DNA of 36,444 nucleotides, taken from NCBI GenBank assembly GCA_003137135.1, contig PLFB01000232.1:26373-62816 (forward strand), written 5' to 3'. This document shows positions 26,567 to 33,856 of this stretch, piece after piece (the first letter of the stretch is position 1; each line of letters begins with the position of its first letter). The notes below the pieces were generated by a model. That model was not told where the DNA came from, made no database searches, and worked only from the letters and a program-made list of their open reading frames with translations. Both the position numbers and the translations under genes were made by a program. Origin of the DNA: Acetobacteraceae bacterium. Its GTDB lineage: Bacteria; Pseudomonadota; Alphaproteobacteria; Acetobacterales; Acetobacteraceae.

Positions 26567-27039
26567 CGGGCGCGCGATTTTCAACCATCCGGCTCGATCA
26601 TGGGCGATTTTGTCAACCATCATGACGTATGCTGCGATGCGGCGTGAACCGGGGGACGGGGCGAATCCCGGAGATCGTTCGAGATACGGATAGTCAATAT
26701 AGCATATAATAGGGCTAGCGTACTTTATGTGTGCTTTTCGCTTGACGGGCCTTGCCGGCTACTTTATGAAAACGAAAAAGCCGGAGGATGTCCAAAGATC
26801 ATCGGAACAATCAAGAGTCGCGATGTCGCAAATAAGTTGATGACTGCAAGTTTCTATCGTGGGTGTGGGTAATCTCTTTCATGCCTTGGGTTAAGCCGTT
26901 AGCGCGGCGGCGATGGCTGCGGTTTGCCGTGGCTGGGTCCGCTGGTCAGGTCCCGAATGGGACGACGAAGGCCCGCGCTGGATGGTCTCGTACGCGTATC
27001 GATATGGCTCATTCATAAGAATAACGGGAGTTAGTGGGG
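26567..27039. promoter_or_regulatory. Non-coding region upstream of the envelope module
   Basis: This 473-bp gap is AT-richer than its surroundings in the middle. TATAAT occurs at 26705-26710 without a good -35. A better pair is TTGACG (26742-26747) with TTATGA or TTTATG about 16 bp downstream (26763-26769). The nonamer TACTTTATG occurs twice (26721-26729 and 26760-26768), 39 bp apart, flanking the TTGACG. A 15-codon ORF starts at the ATG after GCCGGAGG near 26787; I doubt it is real. ORF 26913-27197 lacks any ribosome-binding site and overlaps the next gene. Transcription of the outer-membrane protein gene most likely starts in this region. Confidence 0.5.
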
Positions 27040-28743
27040 ATGGTTCAAGTGGAGAAAATCAAGACCGACCTGGCGGCGAAGGACCTGGCGCGACCTCGGG
27101 AAAACCGGCGGCCGCGCGGATTGCACCTGGCGCTGCTGGCCGGCACCGCCGTTGGCATGGTCGTATGCCTCGGTTCGCGCCCGGCGCGGGCCTTTAATCT
27201 CTATACCGGCACATACAGCGATCAGTCTCTGACGATCAATCTCGAGACCGAAATCGAATATTCGACGATCTACCGCGTCAACGATCCCTCCGCGATTCTC
27301 GCCGGCCCGCAGGACGCCAATCAGAATGACGGCGATGTGGATTTCCGCCATGGTTTTGTGGATAATTCGTTCACGGTCACGCCGGTCTTCGACGTGAAAT
27401 ATGGCAATTACGGTGTGCATGTCAGCGGGGACGCGTATCTCGACACGTCCTATCTTGACAAAAGCCAGAACAACGATGCCGCGACCTACAACCCTTATTC
27501 GACGGCGTCGAACCGGGATTTCACCAGCGCCACGCGCAACATCAACGGCGAGAACGCGCAACTGCTCGACGCCTTTGTCTATGGCACGGAGGAATTCGGC
27601 GCCAATGACGAGCAGTCGATCGAAGTCAAATTCGGCCGCCAGACCTTGCTGTGGGGCCAGAGCTTCTTCTTCCCCACCACCGGCATCGCCGGCGGCCAGG
27701 CGCCGATCAACATTATTACCGCGCAGAGCCTGCCCAATCCGCAGGCGCAGCAACTGTTCCAGCCGGTCGGCCAGGGTGTCGTCACCTATCAGCCGAACGA
27801 GGTTCTGACCTTTCAGGGCTACTACCAGTTTGAATGGGAGCCCGATACGTTCCAGGGCGTGGGCGCGTATTTCAGCAGCGCCGACTTCTTCGACAAAGGC
27901 GGCCAGCGCCTCATCCTCGGGCCGGGTATCGATGCCTATCGCGGCAAGGATCTGCGGCCGGGACATAACGGCCAGTTCGGCGCCTCCGTGCAGGCGACGC
28001 TCGGCAATTACGACCTTGGCCTGTATTACGAACGTTTCGACGCGAAGGCGCCGGAAATCTATCTCGGGCTGCCCACGGCGGGTGAGCCGGCGGGTTCCGC
28101 GGGCACCTACTACCTGGTCTATCCCCGCGATATCAGCCTGTATGGCGCCTCGGTCTCCACCACGGTGGGACCCGCCAATGTCGCGGCGGAAATTTCTGGA
28201 CGCACCAATCAGCCGCTCGATAGCGGGTTCGGGCTGCTGTATAATCCGCTCACTTTCGCGCCGGTCGCGGGCAACGCCAATTCGCATCCGCTCTACGCGG
28301 TCGGTGATACGGTCGATGCGCAGGCCTCGATGTTCTACATCTCGCCCGGGTTCATCGGCGATCCCGGCGGCGCCACGGTGATCGGCGAAATTCAGGGCAA
28401 CAAGCTCGTGTCGGTCACCGCCAATCAACAGGCTTTGGTACAGGGCCGCGATCCGACCGCGGTGGCGTTCGACGTCGAGGTCGAGCCGACCTATTACAAC
28501 GTCCTGCCTAATCTCGAGATCCAGTTCCCGATCAGCGTCAACTACACGCTGCTCGGCCGTTCGCAGATCGCCGCCAACGTCAACCATGGCACCGGCACGA
28601 TCGATGTCGGGATTGCCGGGACCTATCAGACCACCTGGATCGGCACGCTGAGCTACCAGGACTATCTCGGCGCGGCCAACCCGTCATTCAACGGCGACGC
28701 CGATCGCGGCTATGTTTCGTTCAATTTGCAACACACGTTCTGA
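27040..28743 (+). CDS. DUF1302-family outer-membrane protein
   Basis: This 567-aa protein has a charged N terminus followed by a signal peptide (LHLALLAGTAVGMVVCLGSRPARA, cut before FNLYTG). The rest alternates short beta strands rich in aromatic residues and ends in FNLQHTF, a C-terminal aromatic typical of outer-membrane barrels. Segments such as FGRQTLLWGQSFFFPTTG and FQGYYQFEWEPDTF match DUF1302. Family members are found next to DUF1329 genes and RND transporters in clusters for hydrophobic compounds, where they are thought to act at the outer membrane; direct evidence is sparse. The ATG at 27040 follows CGGGAG; the track start is a GTG two codons earlier. Confidence 0.87.
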   Translation: MVQVEKIKTDLAAKDLARPRENRRPRGLHLALLAGTAVGMVVCLGSRPARAFNLYTGTYSDQSLTINLETEIEYSTIYRVNDPSAILAGPQDANQNDGDVDFRHGFVDNSFTVTPVFDVKYGNYGVHVSGDAYLDTSYLDKSQNNDAATYNPYSTASNRDFTSATRNINGENAQLLDAFVYGTEEFGANDEQSIEVKFGRQTLLWGQSFFFPTTGIAGGQAPINIITAQSLPNPQAQQLFQPVGQGVVTYQPNEVLTFQGYYQFEWEPDTFQGVGAYFSSADFFDKGGQRLILGPGIDAYRGKDLRPGHNGQFGASVQATLGNYDLGLYYERFDAKAPEIYLGLPTAGEPAGSAGTYYLVYPRDISLYGASVSTTVGPANVAAEISGRTNQPLDSGFGLLYNPLTFAPVAGNANSHPLYAVGDTVDAQASMFYISPGFIGDPGGATVIGEIQGNKLVSVTANQQALVQGRDPTAVAFDVEVEPTYYNVLPNLEIQFPISVNYTLLGRSQIAANVNHGTGTIDVGIAGTYQTTWIGTLSYQDYLGAANPSFNGDADRGYVSFNLQHTF

Positions 28744-28764
28744 GACCTCAGGAGCGCCAGAAAA

Positions 28765-30156
28765 ATGAAAAGACGCACATTCGGAATCATGGCCGGCGGC
28801 ACCGCGGCGGCGCTCGCCGCCGGTCTGCCCAAGCCGGCGCGCGCGACGGTGACGGCCGACCAGGCCGCGACGTTGAAAACGACCTTGACGCCGTTCGGCG
28901 CCGAGAAGGCCGGCAATGCCGATGGCTCGATCCCGGCATGGACCGGCGGCCTGACGGAGACCGCGCCGGGTTGGACGGAAGGTACGCAACAGCCGGATTA
29001 TTTTGCGTCGGACGCGCCTTTGCTGACCATCAATGCCGGCAATGTCGCACAATATGCCGATATGCTGCCGGTCGGCGTCGTCAACATGATCAACAAGCAT
29101 TCAGACTTCTATGTGCGGGTTTACCCGACGCACCGCACCGCGGCGGCGCCGCAATGGGTCTATGACAACACCTATCAGAACGCGACCTCCGCGCAGTTGG
29201 ACCCGCGCGGCGGCAGGTTCGGCTTTCACGGCGCCTATGGCGGCATCGCGTTCCCGATCCTGGACCCCGATCCGGCCATCGCCGGACCGCAGGCGATCTG
29301 GAACCATCTCACCCGCTGGGACGGCGCCAATTATAAATTTGTCGTCTCGGCCTACATCATCTCCGGCGGGAATATTTCGCTCGGTGGCCTGTACTGGCTG
29401 AAATATCATTATCCCTACTACGATCAGAGCGGCTCGCTGGCGAATTTCAACGGCTGGTATGAATATATCCATCTCGATTACATCGCCCCGCCGGTGCTGG
29501 TCGGGCAGGTTCTGATGGAGTGGTCGCCGACCAACGCGCTCGATTCACCTTCGCAGGCCTGGGAACTGCTGAATGGCCAAGGCCGCGTGCGCAAGGCGCC
29601 GGAACTGACCTACGACACGCCGACCGCGACCGGTGGCGGCATCACCAATTATGACGAGTCGTACGGATTTTATGGCTCGCCGGACCGCTATAATTGGACC
29701 TATGTCGGCAAAAAAGAAATGTATATTCCCTATAACAACAATGCGCTGGCCAATTCCGATCCGAACAAGGTGATCGGTCCGGAATTTATCGATTCATCGG
29801 TCTGCCGCTTTGAAAAACACCGTGTCCATATTGTGGACGCCGTGCTGGCGCCTGGTGAACGCCACACGATTCCGCACCGCCGCGTCTATATCGATGAGGA
29901 TAACTGGCATATCGCGGCGGTCGATGAGTATGACGCCAACGGCAACTATGTAAAACTCTGCCTGGAGTTCAATACCAATGCTCCAAATCTGCCGGGAACC
30001 GTGTTTCTGAATTCGGTGGTCTATAATCTGCAGACCAATCAATACACGGTCGGCACCGGCGCGTTTTTCAACCCGCAATATCCCGGCATCGAATTCGGTC
30101 CGCAGGATCCAAAACTGTTCAATCCGCAGGATATCGCGGCGCAGGGCCAGTACTAG
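28765..30156 (+). CDS. DUF1329 exported protein
   Basis: This 463-aa protein starts with MKRRTFGIMAGGTAAALAAG and ends its signal at KPARA. The RRTFG sequence makes Tat export possible. The mature part begins VTADQAATLKTTLTPFGAEKAGNADGSIPAWTGG, the N-terminal signature of DUF1329. The family is related in fold to LolA/LolB-type lipid-binding proteins. It is 21 bp after the DUF1302 gene, with TCAGGAGCGCC upstream of the ATG, and the pair is conserved in many proteobacteria. It probably works in the periplasm with the barrel and the RND protein in moving or binding a hydrophobic compound. Confidence 0.9.
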   Translation: MKRRTFGIMAGGTAAALAAGLPKPARATVTADQAATLKTTLTPFGAEKAGNADGSIPAWTGGLTETAPGWTEGTQQPDYFASDAPLLTINAGNVAQYADMLPVGVVNMINKHSDFYVRVYPTHRTAAAPQWVYDNTYQNATSAQLDPRGGRFGFHGAYGGIAFPILDPDPAIAGPQAIWNHLTRWDGANYKFVVSAYIISGGNISLGGLYWLKYHYPYYDQSGSLANFNGWYEYIHLDYIAPPVLVGQVLMEWSPTNALDSPSQAWELLNGQGRVRKAPELTYDTPTATGGGITNYDESYGFYGSPDRYNWTYVGKKEMYIPYNNNALANSDPNKVIGPEFIDSSVCRFEKHRVHIVDAVLAPGERHTIPHRRVYIDEDNWHIAAVDEYDANGNYVKLCLEFNTNAPNLPGTVFLNSVVYNLQTNQYTVGTGAFFNPQYPGIEFGPQDPKLFNPQDIAAQGQY

Positions 30157-30218
30157 GGTTATCGCCGTGCTCTCACCCGGCGAGCGCGCGGCGTCCGTCT
30201 GAGGCCGGGTGAAGAGGC

Positions 30219-31358
30219 ATGTCATTGAGCAAGGTTGCGCGTCTGACGAGGAGGTGGCGGCTGGGCCTGCTGGTCTTGCCGAGGGCTCTGATCGCCATGG
30301 CGCTGTTCTGCGTGGCCTTCGGCGGCCCTGCGGTGGCCGCGGAGACGGGTATACGCGCCCTCGATGAAGCCGCGATCCAGATCAAGGCGCCGGACAAAGT
30401 CTTTCTCGATGCGATCACCACCGCCGGCAGCCGGCTGGTGGCCGGCGGCGAACACGGTGTGATCATCATTTCGGACGATAATGGTCTCACCTGGCGGCAG
30501 GCGGCGGTACCGGTGAATGTCGAGATCACCGCCATCAGCTTTGCTACGCCGAGCCAGGGCTGGGCGGTGGGCCATTACGGGATCATCCTGCACACGCAGG
30601 ACGCGGGTGCCACCTGGCAGGTGCAGTTGAACGGCCTGCAGGCCAACCAATTGACCTTGGCGGCCGCCCAGGCGGCGGTTGCGGCCAATGATCCGTCGCC
30701 CGGCACGCCGCTCGCGCTCAAACGCGCGGCCCATTTCGTCAGCGGCGGCGCCGACAAGCCGCTGCTCACCATCTGGGCGGCAAGTCCGCAAGACGCCATC
30801 GTGTTCGGCGCCTATCGCCTGGCCTTGAAAACCACGGATGGCGGCAAAAGCTGGACCGATTGGAGCCTGCATGTCGGCGACGCCTACAGCCATAATCTCT
30901 ATGACGTGACCGCGGTGGGCGGCCAGGTTTATATCGCGGCCGAAACCGGCATCATTTTCCGCTCCAGCGATGGCGGCGGGACATTTCAGAACATCGCCAC
31001 GCCCGGCACCGCCACGCTGTTTGGCGTGCACGACGCCGGCGATGGCGGCGTAGTGGTGTTTGGCGTCGCCGGGCAGATTTTTCTCAGCGACGATCAGGGA
31101 AAATCCTGGAAGGCCGCCAGCATCGGCACTTCGGACAATTTGACCGCCGCCGTGACGCTGCGGGACGGCAGCCTTGTTCTTGCCTGCGAGAACGGCACGC
31201 TCTATAGAAGCACGGATCACGGCCAAAGTTTTTCGCCGTTGCCGCTCGCAATCCCGATGGCCATATTCGACCTGGTGCAGGCGCCCGACGGCGCGCTGGT
31301 GTTGGCCGGGAATGCCGGAAGTCTTCGTATTCCATTACAAGACTTAAGAACGAACTAA
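30219..31358 (+). CDS. YCF48/BNR-repeat exported protein
   Basis: At 379 aa, with an N-terminal signal peptide (LIAMALFCVAFGGPAVAA), this is a beta-propeller of the YCF48-like, photosystem-II-assembly-factor-related family. Six Asp-box motifs are visible: SDDNGLTW, TQDAGATW, TTDGGKSW, SSDGGGTF, SDDQGKSW and STDHGQSF. In non-photosynthetic bacteria such genes commonly accompany DUF1302, DUF1329 and MMPL genes, as here. It may be an assembly or adaptor part of the transport machine; no enzymatic residues are evident. It lies 62 bp after the DUF1329 gene. Its ATG is close to GAAGAGG, and a slightly later start is possible. Confidence 0.85.
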   Translation: MSLSKVARLTRRWRLGLLVLPRALIAMALFCVAFGGPAVAAETGIRALDEAAIQIKAPDKVFLDAITTAGSRLVAGGEHGVIIISDDNGLTWRQAAVPVNVEITAISFATPSQGWAVGHYGIILHTQDAGATWQVQLNGLQANQLTLAAAQAAVAANDPSPGTPLALKRAAHFVSGGADKPLLTIWAASPQDAIVFGAYRLALKTTDGGKSWTDWSLHVGDAYSHNLYDVTAVGGQVYIAAETGIIFRSSDGGGTFQNIATPGTATLFGVHDAGDGGVVVFGVAGQIFLSDDQGKSWKAASIGTSDNLTAAVTLRDGSLVLACENGTLYRSTDHGQSFSPLPLAIPMAIFDLVQAPDGALVLAGNAGSLRIPLQDLRTN

Positions 31359-31359
31359 C

Positions 31360-31392
31360 ACGGAGATGGATGCCCTAGAACGGAGATGGATG
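31360..31392 (+). repeat. Duplicated ACGGAGATGGATG with an 11-codon overlapping ORF
   Basis: The 13-mer ACGGAGATGGATG occurs at 31360-31372 and again at 31380-31392. The first copy offers an ATG at 31366 that reads MDALERRWMFG and stops at 31399-31401. This stop overlaps the first codons of the transporter gene, whose TTG start (31394) uses GGAG of the second copy. The arrangement could be a simple duplication of the start region or a small leader that couples translation. Confidence 0.55.
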
Positions 31393-31393
31393 T

Positions 31394-33856
31394 TTGGCTA
31401 ACCATGGTGCAACGCCGTCCCCGGTCATCGCCGAGATTGCGGATTTCGACCGCAATTCCGGCTCGCGCGCCGAACGGCTATTGTTCAACAATCGCCTCGT
31501 CATTCTGCTTGGCTGCCTTTTTCTGACGCTGTTTCTGGGATTCCAGGCGACGAAGACGACGTTGAATGCCAGCTACGACAGCATGCTGCCGATCCATCAT
31601 CCGTTCATCGTGAACTATTTCAAGCACTACGATGATCTGCAGTCGCAGGAGAACGCGATCCGTATTGCCGTGTCGGCCGATCATGGCACGATCATCGACG
31701 CGCATTATCTTTCCGTGCTGCAGCGTATCAGCGATGAGGTCTATCTGCTGCCCGGCGTCAATCGCCCTTACATGACTTCGCTCTGGACTTCGAACACGCG
31801 CTGGGTCGCGGTGACGCCGGATGGTCTGAGTTCCGGCCCGGTGATTTTTGACCAGTTCAGCGGCAGCAAATCCGACCTGGCGCTCGTGCAAAAGAATATC
31901 GGAGAGACCGGGCAAATCGGCCAGCTCGTCAGTCCGGATTTCACCTCGAGCATGATCTATGTGCCGCTGCTGGAACACAACAATCTCACCGGCAAGCCGC
32001 TGGACTACGGCGATCTGGCGCGCCGGCTGAATGCGATCCGTGACAAGTATGCGAGCCAGGGTGTCACGCTGCATATTGTCGGTTTCGCGATGATCGTCGG
32101 CGACATGATCAACGGTCTCGACAGAATCCTATTTTTCTTCGGGGTTTCCATCCTGCTCGCGACGGCGGTGCTGTATTGGTACACGCGCTGCATCCGCTCC
32201 ACGGCGCTGGTGGTCACCGCCTCGCTCGTCGCCGTGGTTTGGCAGCTTGGTCTGCTGCCGATGCTGGGCTTCGATCTGACGCCGTATTCCATTCTGGTGC
32301 CGTTCCTGATTTTCGCGATCGGCATGAGCCACGGCGCGCAGAAGATGAACGGCGTGATGCAGGATATCGGCCGCGGCACGCATCCGCTGATTTCCGCCCG
32401 GTACACGTTCCGGCGGCTGTTCGTGGCCGGTTTTGCGGCGCTGACCTGCGATGCGGTGAGTTTCGCGGTGCTGCTGACCATCAAGATCAACGCGATTCAG
32501 GAACTGGCCCTGATCGCGAGCATGGGTGTGGCGATTCTGATTTTCACCAACCTGATCATGCTGCCGATGCTGCTGAGCTATACCGGGGTCAGCAAGGCCG
32601 CCGCGGTGCGCAGCCTGCGCCACGAGGCCGCGGCGGGCGACGATCGCGTGTCGCATCCGCTGTGGAATTTCCTCGATCTTTTCACGCAGCGCCGGTATGC
32701 CGCCATCGCCATCCTGGGCGCCGTGGTGTTGGGCGGCGCCGGCTGGGTGGTGGGGCAGCGCGTGCAGGTGGGCGACCTGGCACCCGGCGCCCCGGAACTG
32801 CGGCAGAATTCGCAGTATAATCGCGACAACGGCTACATCCTGAAGAACTACGCGATTGGTAACGACTCGTTCATCGTCTTGGTCGATACGCCAGCGAATC
32901 ACTGTTACGACATCTCGACGCTGCTGACGCTGGATGACCTCGACTGGCAACTGGACCAGTTGCCGGGCGTCGAGAACGCGTCGTCGATCGCCTCGTTCGG
33001 CGAAAATGCGACGATGCTGATGACGGAGAACTCACCGAAGTGGTTCGCCAACGTCAATAGCGACGCCACCGTGCAGGACTACGCGCAGACCGTTCCGGCC
33101 TCGCTGGCGAATTTTTCCTGCAACTTTGACCCGATCTATGTTTCGCTGCTGGACCACAAGGCCACGACGCTGAATGCGGTCGTGAAAACCGTGCAGGATT
33201 TCGCGGCGCTGCCGCAAAATCAGAGCACCGACTTCAAGATTTCACTGGCGGGCGGCAATGCGGGCGTGGCGGCGGCGACGAATATCGTGGTCGCGCAGGC
33301 CAATGAGAGCATGCTGGCGCTGGTCTATGCCTCGGTGATCCTTTTTTGCTTCATCACGTTTCGGTCATGGCGCGCCGTGGTCTGCGCCGTTCTGCCGCTC
33401 GTGCTCACCTCCATTCTGGCGCAGGCGCTGATGGTGCTGCTGCATGTCGGCATCAAGGTGGCGACACTGCCCGTCATCGCGCTCGGTGTCGGCATCGGCG
33501 TGGACTATGCGCTCTACGTGCTAAGCATTCTGCTGCGGCAGTTGCGCCAGGGGGCGAGCCTGTCGGAGGCCTATCATCGGACCTTGCTGTTCACCGGCAA
33601 GGTGGTGGTGCTGACCGGCTTCACGCTTGCCGCGGGTGTGGTGACCTGGGCATTCGCGCCGATAAAATTCCAGGCGGATATGGGTCTGCTTCTCGCCTTC
33701 ATGTTCTTGTTGAACATGCTGGGCGCGCTGATTCTGCTGCCGTCGTTGTGTTATTTTCTGCTGCCGGCGCGCCTGTTCCGCCAGGAACCGGTCAGCGCCA
33801 TCGCCGTGCGGCCCATAACCCAGGCGGCGGCGGCCAAGAAGACATTCGTCAGTTAG
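31394..33856 (+). CDS. RND-superfamily (MMPL-type) transporter
   Basis: This inner-membrane protein of 820 aa has the two-half RND layout. TM1 is LVILLGCLFLTLFLGF, followed by a large periplasmic loop, then a helix cluster (ILFFFGVSILLATAVLYW; ALVVTASLVAVVWQLGLL; ILVPFLIFAIGMSHGAQKM). After a second loop the pattern repeats (LALVYASVILFCFITF; VATLPVIALGVGIGVDYALYVL; VVVLTGFTLAAGVVTWAF). It resembles hopanoid/lipid-type MMPL exporters in size. The only in-frame start after the stop at 31376 is TTG at 31394, with GGAG 8 nt upstream. Operon partners are the DUF1302, DUF1329 and YCF48 genes. Direction of transport is unknown. Confidence 0.92.
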   Translation: MANHGATPSPVIAEIADFDRNSGSRAERLLFNNRLVILLGCLFLTLFLGFQATKTTLNASYDSMLPIHHPFIVNYFKHYDDLQSQENAIRIAVSADHGTIIDAHYLSVLQRISDEVYLLPGVNRPYMTSLWTSNTRWVAVTPDGLSSGPVIFDQFSGSKSDLALVQKNIGETGQIGQLVSPDFTSSMIYVPLLEHNNLTGKPLDYGDLARRLNAIRDKYASQGVTLHIVGFAMIVGDMINGLDRILFFFGVSILLATAVLYWYTRCIRSTALVVTASLVAVVWQLGLLPMLGFDLTPYSILVPFLIFAIGMSHGAQKMNGVMQDIGRGTHPLISARYTFRRLFVAGFAALTCDAVSFAVLLTIKINAIQELALIASMGVAILIFTNLIMLPMLLSYTGVSKAAAVRSLRHEAAAGDDRVSHPLWNFLDLFTQRRYAAIAILGAVVLGGAGWVVGQRVQVGDLAPGAPELRQNSQYNRDNGYILKNYAIGNDSFIVLVDTPANHCYDISTLLTLDDLDWQLDQLPGVENASSIASFGENATMLMTENSPKWFANVNSDATVQDYAQTVPASLANFSCNFDPIYVSLLDHKATTLNAVVKTVQDFAALPQNQSTDFKISLAGGNAGVAAATNIVVAQANESMLALVYASVILFCFITFRSWRAVVCAVLPLVLTSILAQALMVLLHVGIKVATLPVIALGVGIGVDYALYVLSILLRQLRQGASLSEAYHRTLLFTGKVVVLTGFTLAAGVVTWAFAPIKFQADMGLLLAFMFLLNMLGALILLPSLCYFLLPARLFRQEPVSAIAVRPITQAAAAKKTFVS

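Follow-up and report, generated by a model that had tools for sequence, protein, structure and literature searches.

An AmeABCD-type envelope module in a degradation locus of an Acetobacteraceae bacterium and its split into two gene pairs

Described relatives of the module

The passage of apolar molecules across the periplasm of Gram-negative degraders is a largely open question, and it is the background to the four-gene envelope module considered here in DNA of an Acetobacteraceae bacterium (assembly GCA_003137135.1, contig PLFB01000232.1, positions 26,373 to 62,816; this whole stretch of 36,444 nucleotides is referred to as the window). The genes are lettered A (DUF1302), B (DUF1329), C (YCF48 propeller) and D (MMPL/RND). 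The module is of a known type, that of ameABCD of Castellaniella defragrans 65Phen, reported in 2018, which consists of DUF1302, DUF1329/LolA superfamily, YCF48-type and HAE3 RND proteins (PMC6394551). Deletion of ameABCD results in poor growth on apolar monoterpenes with normal growth on oxidised ones, in lowered monoterpene tolerance, and in slightly increased Nile Red accumulation in de-energised cells, although real-time Nile Red efflux is equal in wild type and mutant; its authors propose an exporter in which B and C are both membrane-fusion proteins (PMC6394551). In Pseudomonas putida KT2440 the homologues PP_0765 (DUF1302), PP_0766 (DUF1329), PP_2018 (periplasmic) and PP_2019 (RND) are required for growth on Tween 20, and AlphaFold co-folding, published in 2024, gave a strong PP_2018-PP_2019 contact and weak PP_0766-PP_2019 and PP_0766-PP_0765 contacts (PMC10866462). 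A DUF1329-YCF48-MMPL "nanopod" cluster with a porin-like protein was described in 2026 in the anaerobic benzene degrader ORM2a and is proposed to move benzene, in a direction that was left open (PMC13101534). In Thalassolituus a single protein carries MMPL and LolA-like domains, adjoins a porin gene and is induced on long-chain alkane.

The window shares with the AmeABCD locus the four families, their order, and a place in a degradation island for hydrophobic compounds, but its pathway has Rieske, P450 and FAD hydroxylase components together with CoA enzymes, and its genome holds three to four copies of the module, one of them rotated. It shares with P. putida the DUF1302 plus DUF1329 pair and the pair of periplasmic protein plus RND, which are contiguous here whereas in P. 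putida they lie unlinked at distant loci. The ORM2a cluster has the same DUF1329, YCF48-related and MMPL genes, but with a universal stress protein and other genes between the first two, and it comes without deletion data. The original prediction, that of one trans-envelope system that recurs in connection with hydrophobic compounds, therefore finds support, yet it had already been published (2018, 2024, 2026), trans-envelope reading included, and the window is a further member of the group. What is new here is the split into two pairs of unequal copy number. We read the module as an AmeABCD-type system of two sub-modules that would handle a hydrophobic compound degraded by the products of the adjacent catabolic genes, with one C-D pair serving several A-B pairs, and give this reading a probability of about 0.5.

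Linkage and copy number of the gene pairs

The four genes are neighbours on the + strand with gaps of 21, 62 and 35 nt between the open reading frames (ORFs) of the window; ORF coordinates and Pfam matches confirm the predicted co-oriented series of barrel, DUF1329 protein, propeller and RND transporter. Conservation of the arrangement was followed in the 80 best matches to the window DUF1329 protein among GTDB genomes, with 10 kb flanks, a sample that is biased to near relatives and to this arrangement. The full A-B-C-D order in one orientation was present in 52 of the 80 loci, far above chance, so that the recurrence of the four families together holds; A-B alone was seen in 9, B-C-D in 6 and C-D-A-B in 1, and many loci that lack the A-B-C-D order are variants or reach a contig end. 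The window's own genome carries further copies, an A-B-C-D on contig C89 and a C-D-A-B on contig C247. Because the rotated copies (C247 and sampled locus L098) read C-D-A-B, the pairs A-B and C-D stay intact. The C247 copy (L009:6374-16745) adjoins two luciferase-like monooxygenases, an FMO-like flavoprotein and an alpha/beta hydrolase. There is also an apparently broken fourth module: a partial DUF1329 gene, a propeller and an N-terminal RND piece on contig C174 (C174:1-2800, L012), and a C-terminal RND piece on contig C170 (C170:13154-13693), pieces that represent either decay or assembly breaks.

Counts over whole genomes separate the pairs more clearly. A sample of 26 genomes from one family, covering 19 genera, contained 122 B, 49 D and 47 C. 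B and D occur together in the same 20 genomes and are both missing from the other 6 (Fisher p 4e-6, uncorrected for phylogeny), and in every genome B is at least as numerous as D; only 35 of the 122 B have a D gene within 5 kb. Since B and D share the same genomes while so few B lie near D, B needs an RND gene in the genome but not next to it. The propeller adjoins D in all 47 cases, and 47 of the 49 D have one, upstream in 45; the propeller thus belongs with the RND protein, and the carrier with the barrel. In 60 genomes sampled evenly across the phylum, strong DUF1329 matches occur in 15, and the identical 15 carry DUF1302; a co-oriented DUF1302 gene lies within 1.5 kb of 36 of the 53 DUF1329 places. 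Counts of A/B/C/D were 9/10/1/1 in one genome and 10/12/3/3 in another, and G032, an independent genome from the same class as the window, has about 14 A, 15 B, 6 C and 6 D. The notion of one obligate four-part machine loses weight accordingly, the A-B and C-D pairs being separable and unequal in number. Multiplication of DUF1329 reaches 11-15 copies in single genomes (G032, G063 and G058). Short divergent DUF1329-like proteins of ~270 aa are present in six genomes (G033, G036, G001, G040, G048 and G052), with divergent DUF1302 genes ~3 kb from them, possibly a variant arrangement with genes between.

Features of the four proteins

A is an AmeA-like DUF1302 outer-membrane barrel with an N-terminal signal sequence (27034..28743, + strand; PF06980, E 1.6e-89, residues 35-569), with GTG 27034 and ATG 27040 as possible starts, the second being the one chosen originally. 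Its AlphaFold2 (AF2) model (mean predicted local distance difference test, pLDDT, 85.3) is a porin-like barrel of ~18 strands that matches OccAB, OmpF and AlgE in fold, with a template modelling (TM) score by target of at most 0.58. FadL was not among the top 50 in this search of the PDB, which returned only generic porin-like barrels, and a sequence search for DUF1302 relatives of known structure gave no match.

B, at 28765..30156 (+), is an AmeB-like periplasmic DUF1329 protein of the LolA superfamily (PF07044, E 4.1e-96). Its AF2 model (pLDDT 84.8, predicted TM score 0.87) matches LolA3 of P. gingivalis (9tp6, TM by target 0.81) as well as the solved DUF1329 protein 4z48 and the structure 3bk5, and on the basis of this modelled fold B is likely a periplasmic shuttle for hydrophobic molecules. 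It has the fold of the LolA/LolB carriers, but its partner is an RND protein rather than the LolCDE ABC transporter, and a lipoprotein cargo is not implied; the Lol lipoprotein-sorting pathway was ruled out, as the module has no ABC gene. The signal sequence of B, MKRRTFGIMAGG, appears by eye to be of the twin-arginine (Tat-like) kind. It is found in the window (28765-28850), in the C89 copy (L008:10396-10480) and in the close relatives L041 and L042, and is missing from most of the 80 homologues; Tat export, if true, would mean that B folds before it is exported.

C, at 30219..31358 (+), is an exported, AmeC-like beta-propeller of the YCF48/HCF136 type (PF14870, E 9.3e-22), and its family profile matches Ycf48 (2xbg, E 5.6e-28). 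The six Asp-boxes ascribed to it are borne out by the pattern [ST]xDxGx[ST][WF] at residues 85, 126, 205, 249, 290 and 331 (30471..31232, +). It shares the fold family of the Ycf48/HCF136 photosystem II assembly factor but is not its orthologue, scoring 72.9 bits against the NCBIfam equivalog cut-off of 326.

D, at 31394..33856 (+, TTG start), is an AmeD-like RND transporter of the MMPL/HAE3 kind (PF03176, E 1.2e-19). Its best NCBIfam model is HAE3 TIGR00921 (E 6.5e-35), at 120 bits below the cut-off of 351.9, and its family profile matches MmpL5, HpnN, MmpL3 and Patched; identity to the D proteins of other A-B-C-D loci is 38-69%. The two halves of D are asymmetric: D704-Y705 of GVGIGVDY in the C-terminal half (33503..33508, +) form a candidate proton-relay pair, and at the equivalent N-terminal site S312-H313-G314 of GMSHG (32327..32335, +) replaces DY, both motifs being invariant among 16 aligned homologues. 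The lipid exporters HpnN, MmpL3 and MmpL4/5 of the RND/HAE3 and MmpL groups share with D the membrane-core family and the C-terminal DY, but D differs in its invariant N-terminal SHG and in having a dedicated propeller and a LolA-like partner.

Proposed mechanism, direction and alternatives

In the two-pair scheme A would be the port in the outer membrane, and B would be a carrier in the periplasm that makes contact with both membranes and keeps the apolar molecule shielded on the way. In the inner membrane D would be the engine, driven by protons, and would either receive the molecule from B or pass it on to B; C would be a permanent periplasmic subunit of D, probably a docking or assembly platform, and one C-D engine could serve several A-B pairs. 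Our own data contribute to this scheme the families, gene order, fold of B, inseparability of C and D, excess of A-B and strict co-occurrence of B and D, and papers on homologues the deletion phenotype and predicted contacts; we infer that B is a carrier, that the engine is shared and coupled to protons, and which direction and what kind of substrate are likely. B rather than C would be the natural link between the membranes because of its carrier fold and the weak contacts to both barrel and RND predicted for the P. putida homologues, and the Thalassolituus fusion appears to fit a direct coupling of B with D. The reading here, B as shuttle and C as subunit of D, differs from the two membrane-fusion proteins of the AmeABCD authors.

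Many receptors share one TonB complex, and many pumps share one TolC. The outer-membrane side of the present system multiplies, like TonB receptors and unlike TolC-type efflux, and for this reason we lean, by a small lead, towards uptake, which also fits the growth phenotypes of the homologues. Its fullest form would be a hub-and-spoke uptake system for apolar compounds, in which a single propeller-RND engine is supplied by numerous DUF1302 ports that differ in substrate and each have a LolA-like DUF1329 carrier of their own; it is advanced here only tentatively, as a rather doubtful proposal, and if true it would place a bacterial RND protein on the import side. With 122 carriers set against 49 engines, and with the propeller tied to the RND protein, the loose idea of a "four-gene machine" becomes a claim that can be tested sharply. 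If the engine is shared, loss of a sole propeller-RND pair should disable every substrate of the DUF1302-DUF1329 pairs, and P. putida KT2440 libraries already exist.

Several points weigh against the two-pair uptake reading. Distance trees of the four proteins correlate strongly in every combination (0.78-0.88), with no preference for A-B or C-D, and B-C and A-D have the highest partial correlations; since all four correlate, such mirror-tree pairing is uninformative on contacts. Orphan A-B pairs might depend on a different RND protein, one missed by the profile, and the B/D presence-absence test covers one family with no correction for phylogeny. In addition, the AmeABCD authors argue for export from the tolerance and Nile Red data (PMC6394551).

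That export view, a tetrapartite efflux pump in which D extrudes the toxic substrate, B and C resemble fusion proteins and A is the exit channel, is the strongest alternative and a real, if not the preferred, possibility. Outward transport fits both the tolerance phenotype and what is established for the characterised HAE3/MmpL relatives HpnN and MmpL3, which move lipids outward. Yet neither the LolA carrier fold of B nor the propeller fold of C is that of a membrane-fusion protein, and having many A-B pairs to each C-D pair is opposite to the way in which TolC is shared; moreover, real-time Nile Red efflux is unchanged in the mutant (PMC6394551) and the homologues are required for growth on Tween 20 (PMC10866462). 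An HAE1 tripartite pump of the AcrAB-TolC type was rejected separately, as no membrane-fusion or TolC-type Pfam domain occurs in the module, B being LolA-like, C a propeller and A a porin-like barrel.

A role of the module in the maturation or export of a secreted hydrolase, or in forming vesicles or nanopods, in place of substrate movement, is improbable. Delftia nanopods contain DUF1302 and DUF1329 proteins, a phenanthrene-growth mutant, ascribed to a DUF1329 gene, makes too few vesicles and nanopods, and hydrolase activity had been suspected earlier (quoted in PMC10866462); but the loci examined have no hydrolase as a regular neighbour, and the LolA and RND folds indicate a lipid-like cargo. 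Still less probable is the role originally suggested for the propeller, that of an adaptor bridging outer-membrane barrel and RND protein. C is exported, its gene lies between those of the periplasmic and RND proteins, and the partial distance correlation of B with C is 0.53, but in number and position C tracks D rather than A or B, and the strong co-fold contact in P. putida is to D only (PMC10866462); the adaptor proposal is accordingly not upheld.

Distribution and catabolic setting

The module is accessory and patchy. Neither B nor D is present in any of the 59 other genomes of the window's order, and for this reason its genome probably acquired its three to four modules; D homologues occur on 46 plasmid records of PLSDB. 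Such patchiness and plasmid carriage would suit four independently useful envelope genes co-inherited on mobile catabolic islands without forming a machine, the least credible alternative of all, since the C-D and A-B pairs survive breakage or rotation of the block and B is never without D in the samples.

The predicted degradation setting is borne out by oxygenase and CoA-pathway genes upstream of the module. Encoded there are a P450, both Rieske subunits (alpha and beta), an FAD hydroxylase, a luciferase-like monooxygenase, an aldehyde dehydrogenase, an HMG-CoA-synthase-like protein with an OB domain, a thiolase, MaoC hydratases, a citrate-lyase-type aldolase, an acyl-CoA dehydrogenase, a BKACE protein and an AMP ligase. 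The enzyme families suggest a substrate no narrower than an aromatic or hydrophobic ring compound. An Rfam search of the window gave no match, and a promoter scan yielded 6 sites against 3.5 expected, with no credible site upstream of A. The BKACE gene (window:11811-12758) scores 554 bits against a cut-off of 430 for the NCBIfam 3,5-dioxohexanoate:acetyl-CoA acetone transferase, a match that implies an unusual acetone-transfer step within the upstream pathway. Directly 3' of D are three SnoaL-like genes, an SDR gene and a MarR regulator; the SnoaL-like and SDR genes (window:33896-36040) lie a short distance behind D and from one another, and may share a transcript with D.

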